Assembly: GCA_030950365.1 (NCBI GenBank)
Contig: JAUZRQ010000121.1
Coordinates: forward strand, 1-34,265
Length of the DNA stretch: 34,265 bases
Reading direction: 5' to 3'
Source of the DNA: Candidatus Zhuqueibacterota bacterium
Lineage (GTDB): Bacteria; Zhuqueibacterota; Zhuqueibacteria; Zhuqueibacterales; Geothermadaptataceae
The notes under the pieces were generated by a model. That model worked only from the letters and a program-made list of their open reading frames with translations. It was not told where the DNA came from and made no database searches. Each line of letters begins with the position of its first letter. Position 1 is the stretch's first letter. The translations under genes and the position numbers were made by a program. Below are positions 613 to 13,830 of this stretch, piece after piece.

Positions 613-2712
613 ATGAAACACCGATTCAATGTTCCAGTCTGGAGTTTGTTAATTTTGCTCCTGACCTTTGGTGTCACGTCTCTGGCTTTAGGGCAGAACA
701 CTATCAAGGTCACGTTTAACTTGAACACCTCAACGAACCTGGATACGCTGAACGAAAACCATTTTGTAGAGATCCGAGGGGCGTTGAATTGGAAAACGGG
801 TGCCATTTTACCAGGCGGCAAGACCATCGACTGGAATAGCAGTTCGGATCTGGAGATGACCAATGTCGGCGGCGACTACTGGACCATCACGTTCGAAATG
901 GAACCGGACGATACGCTGTATTACAAATTCTGGACGGGGTTTGATCCCGATAATGGCACTCATCCGAACGGTGGCTGGGAAGGCCCTTTTAATCAGGCCA
1001 TCAATGCCGATACGCGTGTTTTTATCTCCGGCAACACCGATACGGTGGTCGCCTTACAATTTTACCATCCGGATATCGGTGGGCAAAAGGTCGATCAGTA
1101 TTGGCGACCGTTTGAGACCAAGCAAGATTCCGTGGCCATTTTCTTCCGCGTGAACATGGGCGGAGTCACTGAATCCGAACGCTTCAATCCAGACGTAAAT
1201 GGCCCCGTGGGTGTCCGGGGGGAACCAAGTACCTCAAACGGTGCGCTCGATTGGGGAAGCACCAAAGTCATTCTGACCCGCGAAACCGACAGTGTTAACG
1301 GTGGTTCGTTCTGGTCTGGAGTGGTGTATATCCACAAAGATTCGCTCAAAGTCGGTGATGTTCAGAATTACAAGTTCTTCATCGAAAATGATACCGATAA
1401 TGGCTGGGAAAATAGTGTCCCCAACCGTACCTTCACTTACACAGCCACCCTGGTAACCAGCGGCGGTGATACTACGCTACATTGGCGCTATTTCGATGAT
1501 CTGAAACCCACGGGCAAGCAGCCGGTGGAGAGCACGGTCACCTTCCGTGTCAATCTTGAAGCGCTGGAAAAAGTGGGGCTGTTCGATCGTGGCGCCGGTG
1601 ATAAAGTCGCCGTGATTGGCGCCAAGGGCTGGAACCGCCCAGACGATTTGATCATGATGAACTTCATCCCGGCCTTGCAGGAATGGGCGGTTTCCGAGCC
1701 GTTCCGCGAAATTCCTGGATCGATGATTCCTTACAAGTATTTCATCATCTGGGATTCTTCCCGGGTGGACACCAATAGCAGCAATTACATTGCTGGACTG
1801 GATATCAATGATGGCTGGGAAGAGCCGGGTGTGACGGGCGGCGGCAACCGTGTGTTCGAATATCAGAATGCCCCACAGCAGACGCCTCCGGGTGACCTTG
1901 GAAAAGACCTGCAATTCTATGATTCGGTGCCGGTGCAGGGCGTGATTGAAACACCAATCACCGTGACCTTCAATGTGGATATGCGCCCGGCCGCCGATGC
2001 CGCGACCAATCCCAAAACGTTGTTCCGGCCAGGCCAAGATAGTGTTTATGTCCAATTTGATGGCTCGTTGTTTGCATTGACCCAGGGCATGCCTAAGGGC
2101 GGTGAAAATGCCCGCATTCTACTCACCGATGATGATGGCGACGGGATTTATTCAGGGGCCATGCAGCTCAATGTGCCGACCCTGTACATGGTCAGTTATA
2201 TTATTGCCTATTCCACCGATACCGGCTTCGAAACCAACGGTGGCGGTTTCGATAAGGGACGGCGCTATTATCAGTACATCCGTCCGACCCGGGTGAACAG
2301 CGACGGTACCATCGAGTGGCCGAGCGAATACAGTTTCCCAACGGTGGTCTGGAAAGAGAAGGATCTTGATGTGGAAGATCCGCCGGACCTGTTCACCCCC
2401 ACAGGTATTGCCGATGAGCGTGCGGGCCTGCCGAAATCGTTCCGCCTCGAGCAGAACTTCCCGAATCCCTTCAACCCCGAAACGGAAATTCGCTATGAGT
2501 TGCCGGTAGCCAGCCATGTGAATATTTCCGTGTACAACCTGATGGGGCAACTGGTCAAGACCCTGGTGGATGCGCGTCAGGATCAGGGCGTGTATTCCAT
2601 CAAGTGGAACGGCCAGAACGAGCACGGCCGGACCGTGGCCACGGGCGTGTATCTGCTCAAGATGCGTGCCGGTGATTTCTTGCAGGTGCGCAAGATGGCC
2701 TTTGTGCGGTAA
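613..2712 (+). CDS. Secreted protein of four tandem beta-sandwich (CBM48/E-set-like) modules with a T9SS type A sorting domain
   Basis: A 699-residue exported protein. Residues 1-28 form a signal peptide (MKHR, hydrophobic core, SLALG). Four modules of about 110-130 residues follow, beginning near residues 31, 173, 309 and 450. Each opens with a strand such as VTFNLN, IFFRVN, VTFRVN or VTFNVD; the first three contain a Y-K-F/Y strand and a NGWE or DGWE turn, as in starch-binding E-set/CBM48-like folds. No catalytic motif is visible. Residues about 609-699 are a T9SS type A sorting domain (NFPNPFNPETEI, then NISVYNLMGQ and GVYLLKM), expected to be cleaved when the protein is anchored at the surface. 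GGGAGG at 603-608 supports the ATG. Two hairpins follow the gene. Binding of alpha-glucan is inferred from module type and the nearby GH13 gene. Confidence 0.75.
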   Translation: MKHRFNVPVWSLLILLLTFGVTSLALGQNTIKVTFNLNTSTNLDTLNENHFVEIRGALNWKTGAILPGGKTIDWNSSSDLEMTNVGGDYWTITFEMEPDDTLYYKFWTGFDPDNGTHPNGGWEGPFNQAINADTRVFISGNTDTVVALQFYHPDIGGQKVDQYWRPFETKQDSVAIFFRVNMGGVTESERFNPDVNGPVGVRGEPSTSNGALDWGSTKVILTRETDSVNGGSFWSGVVYIHKDSLKVGDVQNYKFFIENDTDNGWENSVPNRTFTYTATLVTSGGDTTLHWRYFDDLKPTGKQPVESTVTFRVNLEALEKVGLFDRGAGDKVAVIGAKGWNRPDDLIMMNFIPALQEWAVSEPFREIPGSMIPYKYFIIWDSSRVDTNSSNYIAGLDINDGWEEPGVTGGGNRVFEYQNAPQQTPPGDLGKDLQFYDSVPVQGVIETPITVTFNVDMRPAADAATNPKTLFRPGQDSVYVQFDGSLFALTQGMPKGGENARILLTDDDGDGIYSGAMQLNVPTLYMVSYIIAYSTDTGFETNGGGFDKGRRYYQYIRPTRVNSDGTIEWPSEYSFPTVVWKEKDLDVEDPPDLFTPTGIADERAGLPKSFRLEQNFPNPFNPETEIRYELPVASHVNISVYNLMGQLVKTLVDARQDQGVYSIKWNGQNEHGRTVATGVYLLKMRAGDFLQVRKMAFVR

Positions 2713-2722
2713 CCGCAGCTTT

Positions 2723-2759
2723 TTAATCCTGGCAGGGGTTCATGCCCTGCCAGGATTAA
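2723..2759 (+). terminator. Long perfect hairpin after the T9SS-sorted gene
   Basis: A 15-bp perfect stem (2723-2737 with 2745-2759) and a 7-nt loop lie 11 bases past the stop. No T-run follows, so it may act as an mRNA 3'-end stabiliser or a weak terminator ahead of the stronger hairpin at 2774. Confidence 0.6.
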
Positions 2760-2773
2760 GGTGTACGACGATC

Positions 2774-2805
2774 AAGGGCATGCGCCCCAACGCATGCCCT
2801 TTTCC
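2774..2805 (+). terminator. Rho-independent terminator
   Basis: An 11-bp perfect stem AAGGGCATGCG (2774-2784) pairs with 2791-2801 across a 6-nt loop, followed by a T-rich stretch. It is the second of two hairpins in tandem and probably ends the transcript of the T9SS-sorted gene. Confidence 0.7.
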
Positions 2806-3001
2806 TTTGTTTCGGAATAGGTAGCGCCAACATCCTGTCCGGCAAAAAGGCAGAACGTGGATGCGGGCATGTTAATTCGCGGTCAAGGACCGCTTTTAGC
2901 CGGGCTAATTTTTTATTAAATGGGATAGAGGCCGTCTCTGACGGCCGGATAAATCGGATATGTTTTTCGATTAATTCGCAATTCGTTTTCCATTTGACCT
3001 C

Positions 3002-5026
3002 ATGAAAAACAAAAACAAACCCCTCACCGAAAAACAAAAGAAATTCATCCGCAAGCATCAGCATGAACTGTCGGTCGACGCCATCGCCAAACGGCTGAGC
3101 GTCTCGCCGGAACAGGTGCGTCGCTATCTTGAGGCTGGCGGCGCACGATTGAGCCGCAAAAAGTTGCTGCTGTTCCGGATCGCGATGGTTTTGCTACCGG
3201 TGCTGTTTTTTCTCTTGCTCGAAGCCATCCTGCGGCTGAGCAACTACGGCGGCAATCTGTCCCTGTTCATCGAAGCGCCCGGAGAATATTCCGATTATTA
3301 CATGTGCAATCCCAATGTGGGCCGGCGCTACTTTTTCATGCAATCCACCATTCCGGATCCTCCTCTGGAGCTGTTTTTGAAACAGAAGCCCACCAACGGT
3401 TACCGCATTTTTGTGCTCGGCGGCTCCACTGCGGCCGGCTATCCGTACGGCAACAACATCATGTTTACGCGCGTGCTGCAAAAGCGGTTGGCAGACGCCT
3501 TTCCGGAGCGATACATCGAAGTCATCAACACGGCCATCCCGGCGATCAATTCTTACACACTGCTGGATTTCATGGATGAAATTCTGGAACAGCAGCCCGA
3601 CATGCTGCTCATTTATGCCGGGCACAACGAATTTTACGGCGCCCTGGGCGTCGGTTCCAACGAATCCATGGGCAAATTTCGTGGCTTCGTGAAATTTTAT
3701 CTTAAGTTGGAGCGGTACAAAACGTTTCTATTTCTGCGTGACATCCTTGCGAAAGTCACCAAACAGACCAGCGAGTGGCTGTTCGGCGGTAGCCCGGCGA
3801 AACCTTCGGGCACGCTGATGGAACGCATGGTGGCCGAGCAAACCATCCCGTATGGCAGTCCGCTGTACCAACTGGGCCGGCGGCAATTTGCCGGCAATCT
3901 GGAAGATATTTTGCGCCAGGCGAAGAAAGCCGGGGTGCCTGTGGTGCTCAGCGAGCTGGTGAGCAACATTCGCGACATGAAGCCGTTTGTTTCCGTGGCC
4001 GCGGACAGTCTGCCGCCTGCCGGGGATGTATTCCGCCAGGCGCGTGTCGCCGAGCAGGCCGGCGAATACGACACGGCCCGGCAACTGTACTACCGCGCCA
4101 AAGACCTTGACGCGCTGCGGTTTCGAGCCACTGAAGATTTCAACGCGGTCATTCATGAACTGGCGCGGCGATATAACGTGCCCGTGGTGCCCTTGCGGCG
4201 GTTTTTCGAGCAGAAATCGCCGCACGGATTGATGGGGGACAACCTGTTTCTCGAGCATCTGCATCCAAATGTGGACGGCTATTTTTTAATGGCAGACGCA
4301 TTTTTTGAGACGTTGCGGCAACATCGCATGATTTCCCGGGAATGGAAACCGGACCGGCTGCGACCGGCCGCCTACTACCGCGAAACCTGGGGACTGACGG
4401 AACTGGATACGATCTATGCCAACCTGCGCATCCGCATCCTGAAAGGCAACTGGCCGTTCAAACCCCGCTGGCAGAAAAACATGGCCATGGCGAATTACCA
4501 TCCGACCACCTTGGCCGAGTCGTTGGCGGTGAAGATTATCCTGAATGATAAATACACTGCGGAAATGGCGCACGTTGATCTGGCCAAACGCTACGAACGC
4601 CTGGGGCAGTATGTGAATGCGTTCCGCGAGTATTATGCCAACCTGTATGCGACGCCGCAGAATATTTCGCCATACATTCACGCGGCCAACATGCTGATCA
4701 AGGCACGGCAGTTTGCCCGCGCCCTGCCGATCTTGTACCAATCGCTCAAGGTGGAAGAAACCGCGTTCGCCTACAAGTGGATCGGACAGATTTTGCTGGA
4801 TCGCGGTAATCTCGACGAAGCGATACCGTTTCTGGAGAAAGCCCTCAACGTGATACCCAACGATGCACAATTACTGTATAACCTCGCCGGCGCACGCGCC
4901 CTGCAAAACGAATTTGAGCAGGCGCTGGCGTTGCTTCAGAAACTTGAAACCATTCAGCCCGGATTCCCGGGAGCCCGGGATTTAATGCAGCAAATCAAAA
5001 AGGTGATATATGATCAGAAAAAGTAA
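3002..5026 (+). CDS. Membrane-anchored SGNH/GDSL-type hydrolase with N-terminal HTH-like segment and C-terminal TPRs
   Basis: A 674-residue protein. Residues 22-46 (LSVDAIAKRLSVSPEQVRRYL) look like a helix-turn-helix and precede one transmembrane segment at about 56-76. The SGNH hydrolase domain follows: the serine block is GGSTAAG with S142, the asparagine block is AGHNEFYG with N209, and the histidine block is EHLHPNVDGY with H421. A lipase, esterase or deacylase acting outside the cytoplasmic membrane is expected. Residues about 341-395 contain a TPR-like helical insertion, and about 519-670 are tetratricopeptide repeats. No clear Shine-Dalgarno precedes the ATG at 3002, but the next in-frame ATG would lose the HTH-like part. 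The 3' end overlaps the GH13 gene by 17 bases, so the two are probably co-translated. Substrate unknown. Confidence 0.75.
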   Translation: MKNKNKPLTEKQKKFIRKHQHELSVDAIAKRLSVSPEQVRRYLEAGGARLSRKKLLLFRIAMVLLPVLFFLLLEAILRLSNYGGNLSLFIEAPGEYSDYYMCNPNVGRRYFFMQSTIPDPPLELFLKQKPTNGYRIFVLGGSTAAGYPYGNNIMFTRVLQKRLADAFPERYIEVINTAIPAINSYTLLDFMDEILEQQPDMLLIYAGHNEFYGALGVGSNESMGKFRGFVKFYLKLERYKTFLFLRDILAKVTKQTSEWLFGGSPAKPSGTLMERMVAEQTIPYGSPLYQLGRRQFAGNLEDILRQAKKAGVPVVLSELVSNIRDMKPFVSVAADSLPPAGDVFRQARVAEQAGEYDTARQLYYRAKDLDALRFRATEDFNAVIHELARRYNVPVVPLRRFFEQKSPHGLMGDNLFLEHLHPNVDGYFLMADAFFETLRQHRMISREWKPDRLRPAAYYRETWGLTELDTIYANLRIRILKGNWPFKPRWQKNMAMANYHPTTLAESLAVKIILNDKYTAEMAHVDLAKRYERLGQYVNAFREYYANLYATPQNISPYIHAANMLIKARQFARALPILYQSLKVEETAFAYKWIGQILLDRGNLDEAIPFLEKALNVIPNDAQLLYNLAGARALQNEFEQALALLQKLETIQPGFPGARDLMQQIKKVIYDQKK

Positions 5027-6878
5027 CCGGCTTTTGCGAAACTTTGGATGCGCGTTATTGTTGACTTTCTTTCTGGCACAGTCGCTGTTAGCGCAAAAAG
5101 AAAAATCCTTGCACCACGTGCCGGAATGGGCCAAGGATGCCGTGTGGTATCAAATTTTCCCTGAACGGTTCCGCAACGGCGATCCGTCCAACGATCCGAC
5201 CGTGGATGACATCATGGGCGGCTGGCCATGGTCGCGCCCGAAACAATGGCGCATTCATCCGTGGACATCGGACTGGTACAAACTTCAGCCGTGGGAGAAT
5301 AACACCGGTAAGGGGTTTTACTGGGAAACCGGCCTGCGGCGCTATGGCGGTGATTTGCAGGGCGTGCTGGATAAGCTGGATTATTTGCAGGAACTGGGCA
5401 TCAATGCCATTTATTTCAATCCGCTGTTCGAAAGCCCATCGCTGCACAAATACGATGCGGCGATGTACCATCACATCGACAACAATTTTGGGCCGAATCC
5501 GGAGCTCGATCGCCGCATCTGGGCAGAGGAAGACCCGACACAGCCGTCCACCTGGAAATGGACCTCAGCCGACAGCCTGTTTTTGAAGCTGATCCGCGAG
5601 TGCCATGCGCGAGGCATCCGGGTGATCATCGATGGCGTGTTCAATCATGTCGGCAACACCTTCTGGGCGTTTCAGGATGTGGTCCGCCGGCAGCAGGCAT
5701 CCCCCTTCAAAGACTGGTTCATCATCAAGCGCTGGGACGATCCGAAGACGCCGCAAAACGAGTTCGATTATCAGGGCTGGTACGGCGTGCGCGATCTGCC
5801 GGAAATCCGCGAAAACGAGCAAGGGCCGGTGGCCGAGAGTTTTCGCGAACACATCCGCGCCATTTTGCGGCGCTGGATGGACCCCGATGGCGACGGTGAT
5901 CCGTCGGACGGCATCGACGGCTGGCGGCTGGATGTGGCAGAGATGGTAAGCATCGAGTTTTGGCGAGATTTTCGCCGCTGGGTGCGCGACATCAATCCCG
6001 ATGCCTATCTCACCGGCGAGGTGTGGTGGGAAGATTGGAACCGCAACAAAATGTTCAATGCCGCGCCGTGGCTGCAGGGCGACGTGTTCGATGCGGTGAT
6101 GAACTACCGGTTTGCCCGTGCGGTGAAAAAACTTGTCATCGATCGCCGCACGCAAATTTCGCCTCGGGCGTTCGCCGATTCGATTCTGGCACTGTTCCGC
6201 GACTATCCGCGCGACAATGTGTATGTGCTGCAAAACCTGATGGATAGCCACGACGTGGATCGCGTGTCGTCGCAAATCGTCAATCCGGATCGCTGGTACG
6301 ATCACGCCGCCCGTCCCGGACACAATCCCGACTATGACATCCGCAAACCCAATGCTGAAGAGCGGCAAAAACAGCGGTTGATCGTCGGCCTGCAAATGAC
6401 GCTGCCCGGCGCGCCCATGATCTATTACGGTGATGAAGCCGGCATGTGGGGCGGCGATGATCCCGATTGTCGCAAGCCCATGGTGTGGCCGGAATTCCAG
6501 TACGAGCAGGAAGCCTCGCACCCGTTCGGCAGGCCGCGCCCGGTGGACAGCGTGGCATTCGATACCGAACTATTCGAGTGGTACAAAACCCTGATCCACA
6601 TCCGCCGGCAGGAAAGAGCCTTGCGTCGTGGCGATCTGCTGTTTCTCATCGCGCCAGAAAACGAGCCGGTGCTGGCCTTCTCTCGTTTTCTGGCTGGCGA
6701 CACCCTGTGGATCGCGCTGAACAATTCTCCCCAAAACCGCATCCTCCAATTTCGCCATGAGCAAATCGCGGCATCGACGCTAAAGGATCGCATCACCGGG
6801 CGCGTTTTTCATCCCCACGATCGGCTGTATGCCTTCCGACTGAAGCCGTATCAGATATTGATACTCAAGTCCCAATAA
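5010..6878 (+). CDS. Secreted GH13 alpha-amylase-family glycoside hydrolase
   Basis: A 622-residue enzyme with a signal peptide (residues 1-29, core ALLLTFFLAQSLLAQ). The catalytic barrel starts at AVWYQIFPERFRNGDP. The four GH13 regions are present: DGVFNH (208-213), GWRLDVAEM with nucleophile D308, YLTGEVWWE with acid/base E337, and MDSHDVDR with D415. The stretch IYYGDEAGMWGGDDPDCRKPM (418 onward to about 490) is typical of neopullulanase/cyclomaltodextrinase-type members, so short-chain alpha-glucan or pullulan-type hydrolysis is likely. There is no T9SS sorting domain, so it is probably periplasmic or outer-membrane associated rather than surface anchored. AGGTGA at 5001-5006 lies inside the upstream SGNH gene, whose end overlaps this start by 17 bases. 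Confidence 0.9.
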   Translation: MIRKSNRLLRNFGCALLLTFFLAQSLLAQKEKSLHHVPEWAKDAVWYQIFPERFRNGDPSNDPTVDDIMGGWPWSRPKQWRIHPWTSDWYKLQPWENNTGKGFYWETGLRRYGGDLQGVLDKLDYLQELGINAIYFNPLFESPSLHKYDAAMYHHIDNNFGPNPELDRRIWAEEDPTQPSTWKWTSADSLFLKLIRECHARGIRVIIDGVFNHVGNTFWAFQDVVRRQQASPFKDWFIIKRWDDPKTPQNEFDYQGWYGVRDLPEIRENEQGPVAESFREHIRAILRRWMDPDGDGDPSDGIDGWRLDVAEMVSIEFWRDFRRWVRDINPDAYLTGEVWWEDWNRNKMFNAAPWLQGDVFDAVMNYRFARAVKKLVIDRRTQISPRAFADSILALFRDYPRDNVYVLQNLMDSHDVDRVSSQIVNPDRWYDHAARPGHNPDYDIRKPNAEERQKQRLIVGLQMTLPGAPMIYYGDEAGMWGGDDPDCRKPMVWPEFQYEQEASHPFGRPRPVDSVAFDTELFEWYKTLIHIRRQERALRRGDLLFLIAPENEPVLAFSRFLAGDTLWIALNNSPQNRILQFRHEQIAASTLKDRITGRVFHPHDRLYAFRLKPYQILILKSQ

Positions 6879-7246
6879 GGCTGTCCCCGGAATGGCCTGT
6901 GGCAAGAAGGCAAGAATTGTGACGCTTCAGTCATAAACCCGGCGCCGAACAAGTCGATATACAGATTAGGCGACGAATTGCCATTCGGGCTGTTCCGGGA
7001 ATTGGTTCGCCGGCATTTCAGACGCGCAAGGATGCCATTTCCCCATCAAAGCTCCTCCTCCCGCAGCGGAGCCTGTGGGCCCCGAACAGCCATCCTTTTC
7101 TAGATGAAATGAGGGCGCTTGCTGATGTCGTCTTGCCAAAACGAGGACATACCGGTCGCAGGATTCCTGAGTTTTTCTTCGCAAACTGGACAGGCGAGGG
7201 TATAATAATGAGACTGCGGACGCGGCAACTATTCAGGGAGGTTTGT
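6879..7246. other. Intergenic region before the second T9SS-sorted gene
   Basis: No gene or recognisable repeat is seen in 368 bases, apart from the promoter at 7178-7206. No clear terminator follows the GH13 gene. Confidence 0.6.
7178..7206 (+). promoter_or_regulatory. Sigma70-type promoter
   Basis: TTCGCA (7178-7183), a 17-base spacer and a perfect TATAAT (7201-7206). A start of transcription near 7213 would leave about 34 bases before the ATG at 7247, and excludes earlier in-frame starts at 7109 and 7209. Confidence 0.6.
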
Positions 7247-9415
7247 ATGCTACTTCAGAAACAGGTAGGATTGCGGATGCTGGGCATGTTCGCTGGTGGG
7301 GCGCTTTTGCTTTTTTGCATGAAAGCCGCAGTGGCCGAAAAATTGGGCACCAATCCGGTGACCTTCCAGGTGAACATGTCCATCCAGATTCTGGAGCAGA
7401 AGTTTGATCCAACGACCGATTTTGTGCTGGTGCGCGGCAGCTTCAATCAGTGGACCACGGTCGATACCCTGGTGGATTCGGATGGCGATAGCCTGTACAC
7501 CAAAATCATTACGTTTTCCGACAGTCTGGTTGGCCAGATGATCGAATTCAAATATTATTACCAGCACAATGGCGTGGAGGTGTGGGAAAGCGATCCGCGG
7601 CGGACGTATGTGGTGCCGGCGGGCGGCGGCTCGGTGCCGCTGGATTATTTTGATCGCGATAGCCAGTACAACTCGCCGTTTGTGAAAGTCACTTTTCAAG
7701 TGAACATGCGCATCCAGATGCTGGAAGGGCGCTTCGATGCCCAAAACGACGGCGTGTTTGTGCGTGGCTCGTTCAACAACTGGGCGGATGAAGCCCTGTA
7801 CGACACCGATGGCGATAGCATTTACACCCGCACGCTGTCGCTGCCGGATTCGCTGGTGGGCAAAACCATTGCCTATAAATTTGGCTATTCGCGCGCTGGC
7901 GGGCAGGTGATCGAAGCCGATCCGAATCGCATGTATACGGTGCCGACAGGGGGTGGATCCGTGCCTGTGGACTATTTCGACCGGGATGCCATTTATGATC
8001 CGATTTATGTGGATGTGAATTTTTCCGTCAATATGTCGGTGAAGATGCTAGAAAAGCAGTTTGTCCTCCCCGGAGATGTAGCCTTCCTCGAACCCGTCAA
8101 TGGCAACTGGGCCGCGAGAACCAACCTGAATGATGCTGATGGTGATAGCATCTATTCCACCACCGTGCAAATCGAGAGCAAATATATCGGCCATGCCATC
8201 GAGTACAGGTTTGGTTTCACACATAACGGCTCGGAGGTCCTCGAAGCCGATCCGGCACGCGTGTTTATCGTGCCGTTCGGGGGCGGCGCTGCACCGGTGG
8301 ATTACTTCGATCGCGATGCCACGGTGGATGCGCCACAGCCGGAAATGAAAACGGCGACAGTGACATTCCGCGTGAATATCAAGCCATACCGTGATAGCGG
8401 ACTGTTTTCGCAGAACGACGCGCTTTTTGCCAAAGGCGATTTCAATCAGTGGCAAAGCGAACAGGATGTGTTTCAGACCGACGCTGGCAATCCAGATGTG
8501 CTGGTGCTGCAGAAATTGATCACAGCAGCGGTGGACAGCTTGCTTGAGTTTATCCTGGTGTTGAAAATCGATGGGGCGTATGAAGTGGAAGATTGGCTTG
8601 GGCACCGCCAGTTTCGGTTCACCGGAGACGATCTCATCCTGCCGGAGGTCACCCCGATTTTCACCGATCCGCGTCCCATCACAGCGCAGGTGCAGCGGGT
8701 GTTTGTGGTCAATGTCAAGCCCCTGCTGCGCAAGCTGGCCGCCGAGGGGCGCGCCATTGGCGAGCTGGACACGGTCACACAGGTGCAAACCATTACGATT
8801 CTCGGGCCAGACCGAAATAACTGGCGCGGTGTCAACACGGCTTACTGGCAGCTTTGGGACGACGGCAGCCATGGCGACGCCGTTGCCGGCGATTCGCTGT
8901 TTACGGCCAGTTTCACCTTTTCGGCGAGCTGGCCGCGTGAAACGGTGTACAAATACCGGGTCAACGGCAAGGATGTGGAGGCGCGGCGCGGCCTGTTTCA
9001 TTATCTGAAAATCGATGCGCAAACCGCTGTGGATACGGTGTACGATGTGTTCGGCAGTCCGGACACGCTGTATGCCGATTACACCCGCGATGCCGATTAC
9101 GTGGTCTCCGTGCGTCTGGCCGATGCAGCCGCACCGCGCGAATATCAATTGCTGCGCAACTACCCGAATCCGTTCAATCCAGAAACGGTGATCCCGTTCG
9201 AGGTGGCGCAGCCACAGCATGTGGTGATTGCGATCTACAATGTGGTTGGGCAGGAGGTCGTGCGGCTGGTGGATGACGAATTGGCTCCCGGCCGGTATCG
9301 AGTCACCTGGAACGGCCGGGACGCGCAGAGGCGGAGGGTGCCGTCCGGCGTGTACCTGTACCGCATGCAGGCCGGGCCGTACCAGAAAACCATGAAAATG
9401 CTGCTGGTGCAGTGA
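7247..9415 (+). CDS. Secreted tandem CBM48/E-set-like protein with T9SS type A sorting domain
   Basis: A 722-residue exported protein. The ATG at 7247 is chosen because AGGGAGG (7235-7241) precedes it and the promoter lies just upstream; it gives a signal peptide of about 30 residues ending AAVA. Four related modules begin near residues 38, 148, 257 and 372 with VTFQVNM, VTFQVNM, VNFSVNM and VTFRVNI. Modules 1-3 carry an F/G-N-x-W turn, a D-x-DGDS-(I/L)Y turn and end in a G-G-G-(S/A) ... DYFDRD motif. A fifth, more divergent segment starts near 484. Residues about 633-722 are a T9SS sorting domain (NYPNPFNPETVI). No catalytic residues are evident, so a carbohydrate-binding or surface-display role is inferred. 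Its 3' end converges on the kinase gene with only 6 bases between stop codons. Confidence 0.75.
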   Translation: MLLQKQVGLRMLGMFAGGALLLFCMKAAVAEKLGTNPVTFQVNMSIQILEQKFDPTTDFVLVRGSFNQWTTVDTLVDSDGDSLYTKIITFSDSLVGQMIEFKYYYQHNGVEVWESDPRRTYVVPAGGGSVPLDYFDRDSQYNSPFVKVTFQVNMRIQMLEGRFDAQNDGVFVRGSFNNWADEALYDTDGDSIYTRTLSLPDSLVGKTIAYKFGYSRAGGQVIEADPNRMYTVPTGGGSVPVDYFDRDAIYDPIYVDVNFSVNMSVKMLEKQFVLPGDVAFLEPVNGNWAARTNLNDADGDSIYSTTVQIESKYIGHAIEYRFGFTHNGSEVLEADPARVFIVPFGGGAAPVDYFDRDATVDAPQPEMKTATVTFRVNIKPYRDSGLFSQNDALFAKGDFNQWQSEQDVFQTDAGNPDVLVLQKLITAAVDSLLEFILVLKIDGAYEVEDWLGHRQFRFTGDDLILPEVTPIFTDPRPITAQVQRVFVVNVKPLLRKLAAEGRAIGELDTVTQVQTITILGPDRNNWRGVNTAYWQLWDDGSHGDAVAGDSLFTASFTFSASWPRETVYKYRVNGKDVEARRGLFHYLKIDAQTAVDTVYDVFGSPDTLYADYTRDADYVVSVRLADAAAPREYQLLRNYPNPFNPETVIPFEVAQPQHVVIAIYNVVGQEVVRLVDDELAPGRYRVTWNGRDAQRRRVPSGVYLYRMQAGPYQKTMKMLLVQ

Positions 9416-9421
9416 TGTGCT

Positions 9422-10552
9422 TCATTGCTCGCGGGGCGCTGGAAGGGACCACGTGCGAATGAATTCGGCCAGTTGCTGGAGATCCGGCGATAGAGCCGTG
9501 CGCACGTAGTAACCCGAGGTGCCCACCCCCGTGAACAGCGCTCCAGTCAGGTCGAGGCCGAGCAGCATCCCGAGACAAAACCCCGCGTTGAAATGATCAC
9601 CGCCGCCGGTGGAAATGGTCGGATGTTCGATATATGAGCCATGCACACCGGCGGTGGCGTTTTCGGAAGCGGCCACCGCCAGTTTCACCGGATGAATCAC
9701 AACGGTCTGGATGTTCAGATGCTGTCGGATGTCGGCCGCGCGCCGCTGCAGCCCATCGAGGTCTGCCGGTCCCGCCGAAATGCCCAGCACTTCGGCGATT
9801 TCCATGCTTTCCTTTTCGTTCATGCCCAGAATGACATGGTAAAAACGCGCAAACCGGGACAGGGTGTCCAGCGCTTCCCGGATATCGTCTGCAGTGCGTT
9901 TTTCCGGATCGGCCAGGTCGAAAAACAGCGTTTTCTCTGGCGCCGGCTGGCAGTGCTTTTGCAGCAACTCCCGCCAGATATCGGTCATGTGCTGAATCAT
10001 GGTCCAGTTCACCAGGGCATAAAACCGGCTTTCGTTCCACAGGCGGCTGAACTCATCGGTGCCCACACTCTGGACGATGCGCGCGTAATCGATCTCGTCC
10101 AGAGCCTGATATTTGCCCAGCATGATTTTGCCATCGGAAAATTCCAGCGCGTCGGTATGGCCGGGTTCGGCGATGCTGTACACCCGGGCGCGGCTGGCAA
10201 AATCGCGGAATACCGGATGCAGGTCTGGATAGCCCAGATTGCCAATGTAGGTTACGCGCAGTCCGAATTGCAGCATGGCGTTGGCCATAATGGGGCCATT
10301 GCCGCCAAGCTTGATCGTATCCACACGCATTTCCACATTGGCGCTTTTGCCGGCGGCCCGGGACAGCCGTTCGGCGAAAGCCGAGATGGTGGGAATAAAG
10401 GTATATTGATCGCGATTCTGCTTTTTGTCCACCAGCCTGACGATTTCATCCACAAAACCGTCGAATCCCATCAGGGCCGGCAGGTTTTGAACGGCCTCTC
10501 GTTTTTGAAAAATCTGGTTGGCAACGTCCTCACGCAGGGCTTGCTCGTTCAT
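9422..10552 (-). CDS. PfkB/ribokinase-family carbohydrate kinase
   Basis: A 376-residue cytoplasmic kinase. The N-terminal part has GFDGFVDEI and the glycine-rich GGNGPIMANAM with GNLG after it, as in PfkB sugar-binding lobes. The C-terminal signature is STGGGDHFNAGF, where the usual GAGD is GGGD; the aspartate is the expected catalytic base. The start at 10552 is preceded by AGGAAGGAGA on the minus strand and by a promoter at 10587-10615; the longer frame to 10678 would cross that promoter. It is transcribed alone, convergent to the T9SS-sorted gene. The substrate (sugar, nucleoside or sugar phosphate) cannot be told from sequence; the neighbouring glycan genes are on the other strand and give only weak guidance. 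Confidence 0.8.
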   Translation of the reverse strand: MNEQALREDVANQIFQKREAVQNLPALMGFDGFVDEIVRLVDKKQNRDQYTFIPTISAFAERLSRAAGKSANVEMRVDTIKLGGNGPIMANAMLQFGLRVTYIGNLGYPDLHPVFRDFASRARVYSIAEPGHTDALEFSDGKIMLGKYQALDEIDYARIVQSVGTDEFSRLWNESRFYALVNWTMIQHMTDIWRELLQKHCQPAPEKTLFFDLADPEKRTADDIREALDTLSRFARFYHVILGMNEKESMEIAEVLGISAGPADLDGLQRRAADIRQHLNIQTVVIHPVKLAVAASENATAGVHGSYIEHPTISTGGGDHFNAGFCLGMLLGLDLTGALFTGVGTSGYYVRTALSPDLQQLAEFIRTWSLPAPREQ

Positions 10553-10586
10553 GCGCGCGCTCTCCTTCCTGAAAAGTTCAATCTCA

Positions 10587-10615
10587 AATATAATATGGAT
10601 TTGTGCCGGTAACAA
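10587..10615 (-). promoter_or_regulatory. Sigma70-type promoter of the PfkB kinase gene
   Basis: On the minus strand TTGTTA (10615-10610), 17 bases, TATATT (10592-10587). Transcription would begin near 10580, about 28 bases before the chosen ATG at 10552. Confidence 0.6.
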
Positions 10616-11075
10616 ATTGTTTTTTCGTAACGTGGCCTTTCTCGAATATCTGCTGTTCCGAAAAAGCAAGAAGGCCATAAATGCGATTTTTAAGCCACGG
10701 ATTGATGCGGATGATATCTGCCGGGCTTTTCTTTGCTGAATCCAACTTTCTTTTGGTGTGAGCGGTCGTAATAATTATGTTTAAGAGGAGGGAAAAACAC
10801 TCCGGGGTCTCGGCCAGATCTGCGAGAAATTTTCTTTTCTCGATTCTGAACAAATACGTAATAATCGGAAGAGAAAGGCCATTATGTTTTGCATCTTTGC
10901 GACTTAGCGCCGTTGCGTGAGAAGCATAGCTATAGAGTCGGTTATGATCAGTTTTTCAATTTTTATCTGTAAAATTTCAAGAAATGCCCCATTGGACACT
11001 TCAAGCTTGATCGAATGGCCGGGATTGTTAAATTTAAGGTTCGTTTAAATTCTGATCATATTTCTTCGCAAAGAA

Positions 11076-12468: not shown

Positions 12469-13830
12469 ATGACCATGCAGCCGAAGAAATTAGGAATCCT
12501 GGTTGGGGGCGGACCGGCTCCCGGTATCAACAGTGTGATTGGCGCCGCCACCATTCGCAGCATTATCCAGGGAACGGAGGTTCTCGGCATTCTGGATGGC
12601 TTCAAATGGATCATGCGCGGCGACATCTCGCATGTAAAGGAGCTGACCATCCAGAATGTGAGTCGAATCCATTTCCGCGGCGGATCGTACATCGGCATTT
12701 CGCGGGACAACCCGACGAAAAATCCCAGGGACCTGGAGACGGCGGTTACGTCGCTGTTGCGCCTGAATATCGATAAATTGATCACCATCGGCGGGGATGA
12801 CACCGCCTATTCTGCCATGAAACTGGAAGAAATGGCCAACGGCCGCATCCGTGTGGTGCATGTGCCCAAAACCATCGACAACGATTTGGAGCTGCCGCAC
12901 GGCATCAACACGTTCGGGTTTCAAACCGCCCGGCATCTCGGTGTGGAGATCGTCAAAAACCTCATGGTCGATGCGCAGACCACCTCGCGCTGGTATTTTG
13001 TGATTACCATGGGGCGCAAGGCCGGCCATCTGGCGCTAGGCATTGGCAAGGCGGCCGGTGCCACGCTGACCATAATTCCCGAAGAGTTCACCGATAAAAA
13101 TCCAATCACGCTGAAAAAATTGGTGGATATTCTGGTCGGTGCGATCATCAAGCGATTGAGCTACGGCCGCCCGGATGGCGTGGCCGTTCTGGCCGAGGGA
13201 TTGGTGGAAAAAATGTCACCTGAGGATATCCAGTCGCTTGTGAACGTGGAACGCGACGAGCACGATAACATCCGGCTGGCGGAAATCAATTTCGGGGAGA
13301 TTTTGAAGAGGCAGGTGCAACAGCGGCTGGCGGAATTCGGGCTGAAGACCACCATCGTGGCTAAAAACATCGGCTACGAGCTTCGTTGCGCCGATCCGAT
13401 TCCATTTGATATGGAGTACACGCGCGATCTGGGCTTCTGTGCGGCCAAATTCATACTGGATGGCGAAAATGCCGCCATGGTGTCCATCCAGAACGGGAAA
13501 TTTGTGCCGCTGTTTTTCAAGGATATCATCGATAAAAAGACCGGCCGTACACGCGTGCGTATGGTGGACATCAACGCAGAAAGCTACCAGATCGCCCGGC
13601 GATACATGATCCGACTGTCGCTGGAAGATTTTCAGGATCCGCATGAGCTGGCCAAGTATGCGGCTACGGCGAACATTTCCCTTGAGGAGTTCAAAAAGCA
13701 GTTCTATTATCTGGTGGAAAACGATGTCTCCTATGAGCCGTTTGATGGGTTGCAGATAGTACAGGGAATTCGCGAAAACGACCACGGCAAGGCGAAGAAG
13801 CCGGCCAAGGCGGCGGCTGAGAAAGCATAG
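12469..13830 (+). CDS. 6-phosphofructokinase, PfkA superfamily, pyrophosphate-type signature
   Basis: A 453-residue glycolytic enzyme interconverting fructose 6-phosphate and fructose 1,6-bisphosphate. The N-terminus has GGGPAPGINSVI. The phosphoryl-donor loop is GGDDT with D110-D111, and the next motif is PKTIDND with K134 and catalytic D137. In this superfamily, Asp in place of Gly in GGDGS and Lys in place of Gly in PGTIDND mark pyrophosphate-dependent enzymes, because they block ATP; this gene has both. MGRKAGHLALG (substrate site) follows. The length suits longer PPi-type forms rather than the roughly 320-residue bacterial ATP enzyme. AGGAG at 12460-12464 precedes two in-frame ATGs (12469, 12475); the second has the better spacing. 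The C-terminus is Lys/Ala rich (KAKKPAKAAAEKA). It stands alone. Confidence 0.88.
   Translation: MTMQPKKLGILVGGGPAPGINSVIGAATIRSIIQGTEVLGILDGFKWIMRGDISHVKELTIQNVSRIHFRGGSYIGISRDNPTKNPRDLETAVTSLLRLNIDKLITIGGDDTAYSAMKLEEMANGRIRVVHVPKTIDNDLELPHGINTFGFQTARHLGVEIVKNLMVDAQTTSRWYFVITMGRKAGHLALGIGKAAGATLTIIPEEFTDKNPITLKKLVDILVGAIIKRLSYGRPDGVAVLAEGLVEKMSPEDIQSLVNVERDEHDNIRLAEINFGEILKRQVQQRLAEFGLKTTIVAKNIGYELRCADPIPFDMEYTRDLGFCAAKFILDGENAAMVSIQNGKFVPLFFKDIIDKKTGRTRVRMVDINAESYQIARRYMIRLSLEDFQDPHELAKYAATANISLEEFKKQFYYLVENDVSYEPFDGLQIVQGIRENDHGKAKKPAKAAAEKA

Follow-up and report, generated by a model that had tools for sequence, protein, structure and literature searches.

Introduction

The Sus system of Bacteroides thetaiotaomicron (SusCDEF, SusG and SusA) combines a TonB-dependent importer, tandem starch-binding surface proteins, a secreted GH13 enzyme and a regulator. 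In the part of the bacterial tree considered here, polysaccharide loci have mostly been located through their SusC/SusD pairs. A SusCDE operon has been described in Melioribacter roseus (PMC3534657), and Caldithrix abyssi is able to grow on starch (PMC5317091).

The type IX secretion system (T9SS) of Flavobacterium uses PorV as its type A carrier; PorV docks on SprA, and SprA has a PPIase bound to it as well (PMC10994853). F. johnsoniae has ten PorP-like barrels, presumed to handle cognate type B cargo; SprF and PorP bind their cargo (SprB and PG1035), and proteins with a type B C-terminal sorting domain (CTD) are anchored by cognate PorP-like barrels (PMC9143113). Within the open-licence papers searched, we found no description of a TonB-dependent importer (TBDR) paired with a PorV/T9SS cassette.

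Here we analyze a stretch of 34,265 nucleotides from Candidatus Zhuqueibacterota bacterium (GCA_030950365.1, contig JAUZRQ010000121.1), referred to as the window. From the window alone, it had been proposed to hold an alpha-glucan locus in which two T9SS-sorted surface proteins work in the manner of SusE and SusF. We report that these genes belong to a larger cassette, apparently a so far undescribed relative of the Bacteroides starch system, which recurs across the phylum and beyond.

Results

Gene content of the window

The features of the locus that lie within the window are listed below.

1-411, + strand: PorV/PorQ-family outer-membrane barrel, C-terminal 136 residues (NF033709 match and contig overlap)
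613-2712, + strand: protein A, 699 aa, with signal peptide, four E-set/CBM20-like modules and T9SS type A CTD
700-1116, + strand: A module 1 (A1), Trp74/Trp122 invariant in 13 orthologues
1120-1512, + strand: A module 2 (A2), Trp214/Trp265; the A1-A2 type is fused to GH53 in relatives
1528-1938, + strand: A module 3 (A3), Trp340/Trp402
1948-2412, + strand: A module 4 (A4), resembling B1-3 (HHalign), without Trp pair
2422-2709, + strand: T9SS type A sorting domain of A
2723-2801, + strand: two strong hairpins 3′ of A, candidate terminator or attenuator ahead of the SGNH gene
3002-5026, + strand: SGNH/GDSL hydrolase, membrane-anchored, 674 aa, C-terminal TPRs (TM and SGNH motifs by eye)
5010-6878, + strand: GH13 enzyme, neopullulanase/cyclomaltodextrinase type, 622 aa, secreted, with signal peptide and without CTD
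7247-9415, + strand: protein B, with signal peptide, CBM20-like modules, choice-of-anchor-X-type module and T9SS CTD
7340-7666, + strand: B module 1 (B1), full CBM20 site-1 Trp pair Trp115/Trp159
7676-8344, + strand: B modules 2 and 3 (B2, B3), second Trp lost
8348-9112, + strand: B module 4 (weaker) and choice-of-anchor-X-type module
9125-9412, + strand: T9SS type A sorting domain of B

The original prediction was borne out in part by this gene content. Reading frames confirmed a membrane SGNH hydrolase, additionally equipped with C-terminal TPRs, and a secreted GH13 enzyme between A and B, and the barrel at the edge is a PorV-family C-terminus. Both module proteins exceed the NCBIfam cut-off for T9SS type A sorting (TIGR04183; A 33.2 bits and B 29.2 bits against 23). 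Read by eye, neither A nor B has a lipobox cysteine at the end of its signal peptide; they carry C-terminal T9SS domains instead. The listed reading frame of B spans 7109-9415 (768 aa), and its true start is probably near 7247 because the signal peptide begins at residue 47 of that frame.

The catalytic domain of the GH13 enzyme is present (PF00128, E 2e-55) and its catalytic Asp/Glu/Asp residues are in place (GWRLDVAE, TGEVWW and DSHDVDR align to neopullulanase 2 / alpha-amylase II), with neopullulanase-type enzymes as its closest matches. The hairpins downstream of A have stems of 15 and 11 bp and a stability far above that of shuffled sequences (z -6.4), and a T-rich stretch lies directly 3′ of the second. 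Because of these strong hairpins the SGNH, GH13 and B genes may have a separate transcript, and the hairpins could set array expression high and enzyme expression low.

Several further observations concern the neighboring genes. The N-terminal ~50 residues of the SGNH/TPR protein, ahead of the TM, are HTH-like and cytoplasmic, with weak sigma-region matches. A gene of the prokaryotic ketohexokinase family (window 9422-10678, - strand) converges on B and also adjoins B in a genome of the same genus (G001), and a diphosphate-dependent phosphofructokinase (window 12469-13830, + strand) scores above its NCBIfam cut-off.

The locus extends across the contig edge

The window is one contig (C26) of its genome (G000) and begins inside porV. 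The first 258 PorV residues were found on a second contig of the same genome (C99), which shares an exact 141-bp overlap with the window start, and the other end of C99 overlaps a third contig (C52), again by exactly 141 bp, at the end where C52 carries a TBDR gene. Both overlaps fall within reading frames (TBDR and PorV) that run across the joints. C99 also encodes a protein of ~1180 aa, here called BIG, so that the rebuilt order is PPIase, TBDR, BIG, PorV, A, SGNH, GH13, B. In G001, the genes directly upstream of porV are BIG, TBDR, PPIase and a LacI regulator.

These joins change how the window is read. The predicted lack of a SusC/SusD pair stands as regards SusD, while the importer whose absence it implied lies directly upstream on C52; the reading without an importer was an artefact of the contig edge. 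The idea of surface arrays feeding a periplasmic amylase without an outer-membrane importer was accordingly abandoned, TBDR and BIG preceding porV here and in nearly every relative.

A small GIY-YIG endonuclease-like reading frame, identified by eye, lies between TBDR and BIG on C99 (L103, reverse complement 170-860) and is bordered on both sides by inverted palindromic repeats (CATTCCGGTTTTTTCGCGATCATG... / ...CGGTGAAAAAACCGGAATG); together they look like a mobile unit. The corresponding TBDR-BIG gap in G001 is only ~190 bp.

Identity of TBDR, BIG and PorV

The TBDR was assessed through its 92% identical G001 orthologue, which contains CarbopepD_reg_2 and Plug domains (Pfam). Its N-terminal part matches the SusC/RagA family TIGR04056 (E 4.8e-24) with 84.8 bits, short of the cut-off of 368. 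No SusD_RagB match was found on C26 or C99; the genome's own SusD matches are on C101, C58, C75 and at 13 kb of C52, far from the TBDR at 67-70 kb of C52. BIG produced zero Pfam matches, SusD included. Its last 105 residues match a T9SS CTD profile (HHalign 97.4%, E 1.2e-11), and its C-terminus scores under the TIGR04183 cut-off. An AlphaFold2 model of BIG from the Caldithrix-labelled L194 (five sequences) was strand-rich and, at pLDDT 41, too poor to assign a fold or complex. The complete G001 orthologue places the barrel in the PorV family (NF033709, 189 bits; cut-off 90), with 155 bits for the C99 part of the window's own PorV and 44.7 bits (E 1.3e-11) for the window fragment.

SprA was found in 59 of 60 relatives, own genome included. 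The own genome also encodes two C25 PorU-like proteins, which score above the Pfam cut-off and below that of the PorU equivalog family NF033707, and it contains ~60 matches to T9SS sorting domains and 26 to the PorV family.

Tandem CBM20-like modules in A and B

With 39.7 bits, protein B exceeds the cut-off of 23.3 for Pfam CBM_20. Ten of the 13 A orthologues also yielded a CBM_20 match (E <= 0.1; best E 1.4e-10), the window's own A giving no match to this Pfam family. When a profile of B-type arrays was compared with solved structures, it matched the CBM20 domains of CGTase (E 2.9e-7) and glucoamylase (E 6.7e-7) with both site-1 tryptophans aligned. Profile-profile comparison interlinked A1, A2 and A3, and linked A2 and A4 to B1-3. 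All 13 A orthologues keep the pairs Trp74/122, Trp214/265 and Trp340/402, a small alignment shift being needed for Trp214 in four of them, and the aligned positions are those of site 1 in the CBM20 family. In the search for aromatic platforms suggested in the original prediction, tryptophan pairs like that of CBM20 site 1 turned up in A1, A2, A3 and B1.

On the strength of the Pfam, orthologue and profile matches, the CBM48 label first given to the modules was replaced by CBM20. Of the description of A and B as consisting only of tandem CBM48/E-set-like modules, the tandem arrangement remains, and B contains in addition the choice-of-anchor-X-type module. The arrays resemble the CBM20 of glucoamylase and the E domain of CGTase in their profile match and in having both site-1 tryptophans. 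They differ from these domains in forming strings of three to four modules with no catalytic domain, and in that the tryptophan pair is missing from A4 and from parts of B. Judged by homology, A and B would share with SusE and SusF the property of carrying tandem starch-binding modules without a catalytic domain. An AlphaFold2 model of A (four sequences) had low confidence (pLDDT 53) and was uninformative on module folds, and Foldseek hits of A, which were generic beta-sandwich strings and PorU, were not taken as evidence.

Enzymes linked to A-type modules

In nine of the genomes that have an A orthologue, own included, the enzyme linked to it is a GH13, and some of these relatives encode a second GH13 (GH13_2) and an SSF symporter downstream; the second GH13 of G034 has a glucodextranase-type C-terminal domain. 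In five other genomes the cassette is followed by a protein that carries, toward its C-terminus, two A-type modules 42-56% identical to A1-A2, a galactan version of the cassette:

L080:12240-14507 and L078:7679-10012: proteins with two A-type modules
L079:10111-12330, L077:5370-7607 and L082:7049-9319: proteins with two A-type modules

An N-terminal GH53 domain (endo-beta-1,4-galactanase family) and a T9SS tail were confirmed with Pfam in L080 and L078, and the L079, L077 and L082 proteins are assigned to GH53 by homology. Genes for GH2, or for GH42 and lacto-N-biose phosphorylase, adjoin the GH53-type protein in four of the five genomes. GH13-linked and GH53-linked A proteins fall mostly into separate clades, with one exception (G022).

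Because the A1-A2 type is fused to catalytic GH53 in relatives, there is good evidence, at the level of homology, that A-type modules are carbohydrate-binding modules. Their occurrence in beta-galactan loci also means that the arrays alone do not prove starch. The designation as an alpha-glucan locus, which could not have been read from the arrays alone, is nevertheless likely to be correct here because of the GH13 enzyme and the CBM20 modules of B.

The cassette recurs and diverges as a unit

Conservation of the neighborhood, another check suggested for the locus, was found in relatives. Among 47 PorV-family genes whose loci were read, a set for which resemblance to A or B was one selection criterion, so that the count is not unbiased, 28 are immediately preceded by a TBDR-BIG pair, and a further 10 have BIG upstream without a visible TBDR, mostly at a contig end. 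Complete TBDR-BIG-PorV(-array) cassettes number 27, including some from Marinimicrobia and ‘Bacteroidetes’ MAGs. The TBDR-BIG-PorV order is present in Bacteroidetes-/Marinimicrobia-labelled MAGs (L141, L142, L158), the only full-length hits of a contig scan with A1 that otherwise returned mostly sorting-domain motif matches, and it is kept without the array in a Caldithrix-labelled one (L194). Of 82 genomes from the phylum, 76 encode BIG, as a rule with several copies each.

For TBDR, BIG and PorV, the distance matrices computed from the 27 cassettes correlate with one another at r 0.90-0.96. Among seven paralogous cassettes of the own genome the correlation persists (Mantel r 0.83-0.88, P <= 0.0025), and since species descent cannot explain correlation among paralogues within one genome, TBDR, BIG and PorV duplicate and diverge as a unit. 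This joint divergence argues that the cassette PorV is dedicated to its own cassette and is not part of the general secretion machinery. The binding array is absent from several of the paralogous cassettes, so glycan capture is not the sole task of BIG and PorV.

The further TBDR-BIG-PorV cassettes of the own genome are located on contigs C28, C69 (two), C80, C108 and C111, with variants on C63 and C87. Several have no CAZyme nearby, and their neighbors include FG-GAP proteins, a PIG-L deacetylase and GH57.

Discussion

The locus shares with the B. thetaiotaomicron Sus a TonB-dependent importer, tandem-module surface proteins, a secreted GH13 enzyme and a local regulator. In contrast to Sus, it is without SusD and its TBDR falls under the SusC cut-off; A and B lack a lipobox and have T9SS CTDs; the locus has its own PorV-family barrel and BIG; and the regulator is of the LacI type rather than the SusR type. 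The locus works like Sus with SusE/SusF and is not a member of that system, given the missing SusD, the failed SusC cut-off and the T9SS tags. The predicted SusE/SusF-like mode of working is retained in so far as T9SS-tagged tandem arrays, putatively glycan-binding, adjoin a secreted GH13 enzyme.

We consider it probable that the locus takes up glycan without SusD and relies on T9SS to export its binding proteins. In the proposed mechanism, T9SS would export BIG and the CBM20-type arrays A and B, with the cassette PorV-family barrel acting as their dedicated carrier or anchor. BIG, A and B would then sit on the surface around the TBDR, perhaps in a physical complex, where A and B may capture glycan. 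Flow would be inward, the TBDR (with its SusC-like N-terminal extension and plug) importing oligosaccharides, a periplasmic GH13 cutting the imported maltodextrins, and the SSF symporter, adjacent in some relatives, taking up the products. More tentatively, and with a probability that we would put below even, BIG may be a T9SS-delivered replacement for SusD, a large surface protein that is carried by the cassette PorV and caps or scaffolds the TBDR. If so, the cassette would represent a second, independently assembled route for surface import of glycans and other nutrients, and a whole FCB-type phylum would be using TBDR-BIG-PorV in many copies.

The same genes could belong to an ordinary Sus-type PUL, with the TBDR and BIG being divergent forms of SusC and SusD, the latter with fused domains, in which case T9SS in place of lipoprotein export would be the sole departure from the Bacteroidota scheme. 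The N-terminal TIGR04056 match of the TBDR (E 4.8e-24) and a TBDR-then-BIG order that resembles susC-susD agree with this reading. However, the score of 84.8 bits stays below the cut-off of 368, and BIG, at 1180 aa, strand-rich (in a poor model) and ending in a T9SS-like CTD, matches no Pfam family, SusD included; we regard this explanation as unlikely. Alternatively, the locus could serve adhesion or biofilm formation, A and B binding the cell's own glycogen-like or surface polysaccharide, GH13 remodelling it and the TBDR being an unrelated neighbor. In favor of this, T9SS arrays may function as adhesins, the SGNH/TPR protein is similar to enzymes that modify polysaccharides, and CAZymes are missing from several cassettes. 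Catabolism is nevertheless indicated by the LacI regulator upstream, by the SSF symporter and second GH13 downstream in relatives, and by the occurrence of these modules on GH53, a degradative enzyme, as fusions, which leaves an adhesion role quite improbable.

The substrate itself might be different or mixed. Uptake of beta-galactan would have A binding beta-1,4-galactan-like chains, with GH13 a recent swap and the window's A retaining an older specificity, as the A1-A2 type modules (42-56% identical) on GH53 proteins beside GH2, GH42 or lacto-N-biose phosphorylase might suggest. Yet B is clearly CBM20-like, GH13 is linked in nine genomes including the own, and GH13-linked and GH53-linked A proteins occupy mostly different clades, G022 excepted, and among the alternatives we find this one the hardest to credit. 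Uptake of an alpha-glucan by a SusD-less, T9SS-served system is the reading that we prefer.

With respect to secretion, the cassette is like the cognate pairs of PorP/SprF and type B CTD proteins (PMC9143113) in that the gene of a FadL-type barrel stands beside CTD cargo and that several paralogues occur per genome; by analogy, a cassette-specific PorV next to CTD proteins would fit the logic of cognate PorP-type barrels. It differs from those pairs in that the barrel is of the PorV family, the tags are of type A (in BIG, T9SS-like) and a TBDR is bound up with the unit. It likewise resembles the PorV/PPI system of the SprA translocon (PMC10994853) in that its genes include those of a PorV-family barrel and a PPIase, but the barrel is one of 26 matches and diverges with TBDR and BIG instead of serving all cargo. 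The cassette offers a reason for the numerous PorV paralogues in these genomes and a direct tie between type IX secretion and nutrient import. Used as a marker, TBDR-BIG-PorV would reveal missed loci in KSB1-, Marinimicrobia- and Calditrichota-labelled genomes.

SusCD-like loci coexist with the cassettes in the own genome, where SusD-type genes on C101 (L129) and C58 (L130) adjoin TBDRs of their own. In one relative, a single 1260-aa reading frame (L075:1125-4907, G006:C379) contains two A copies in a head-to-tail fusion.
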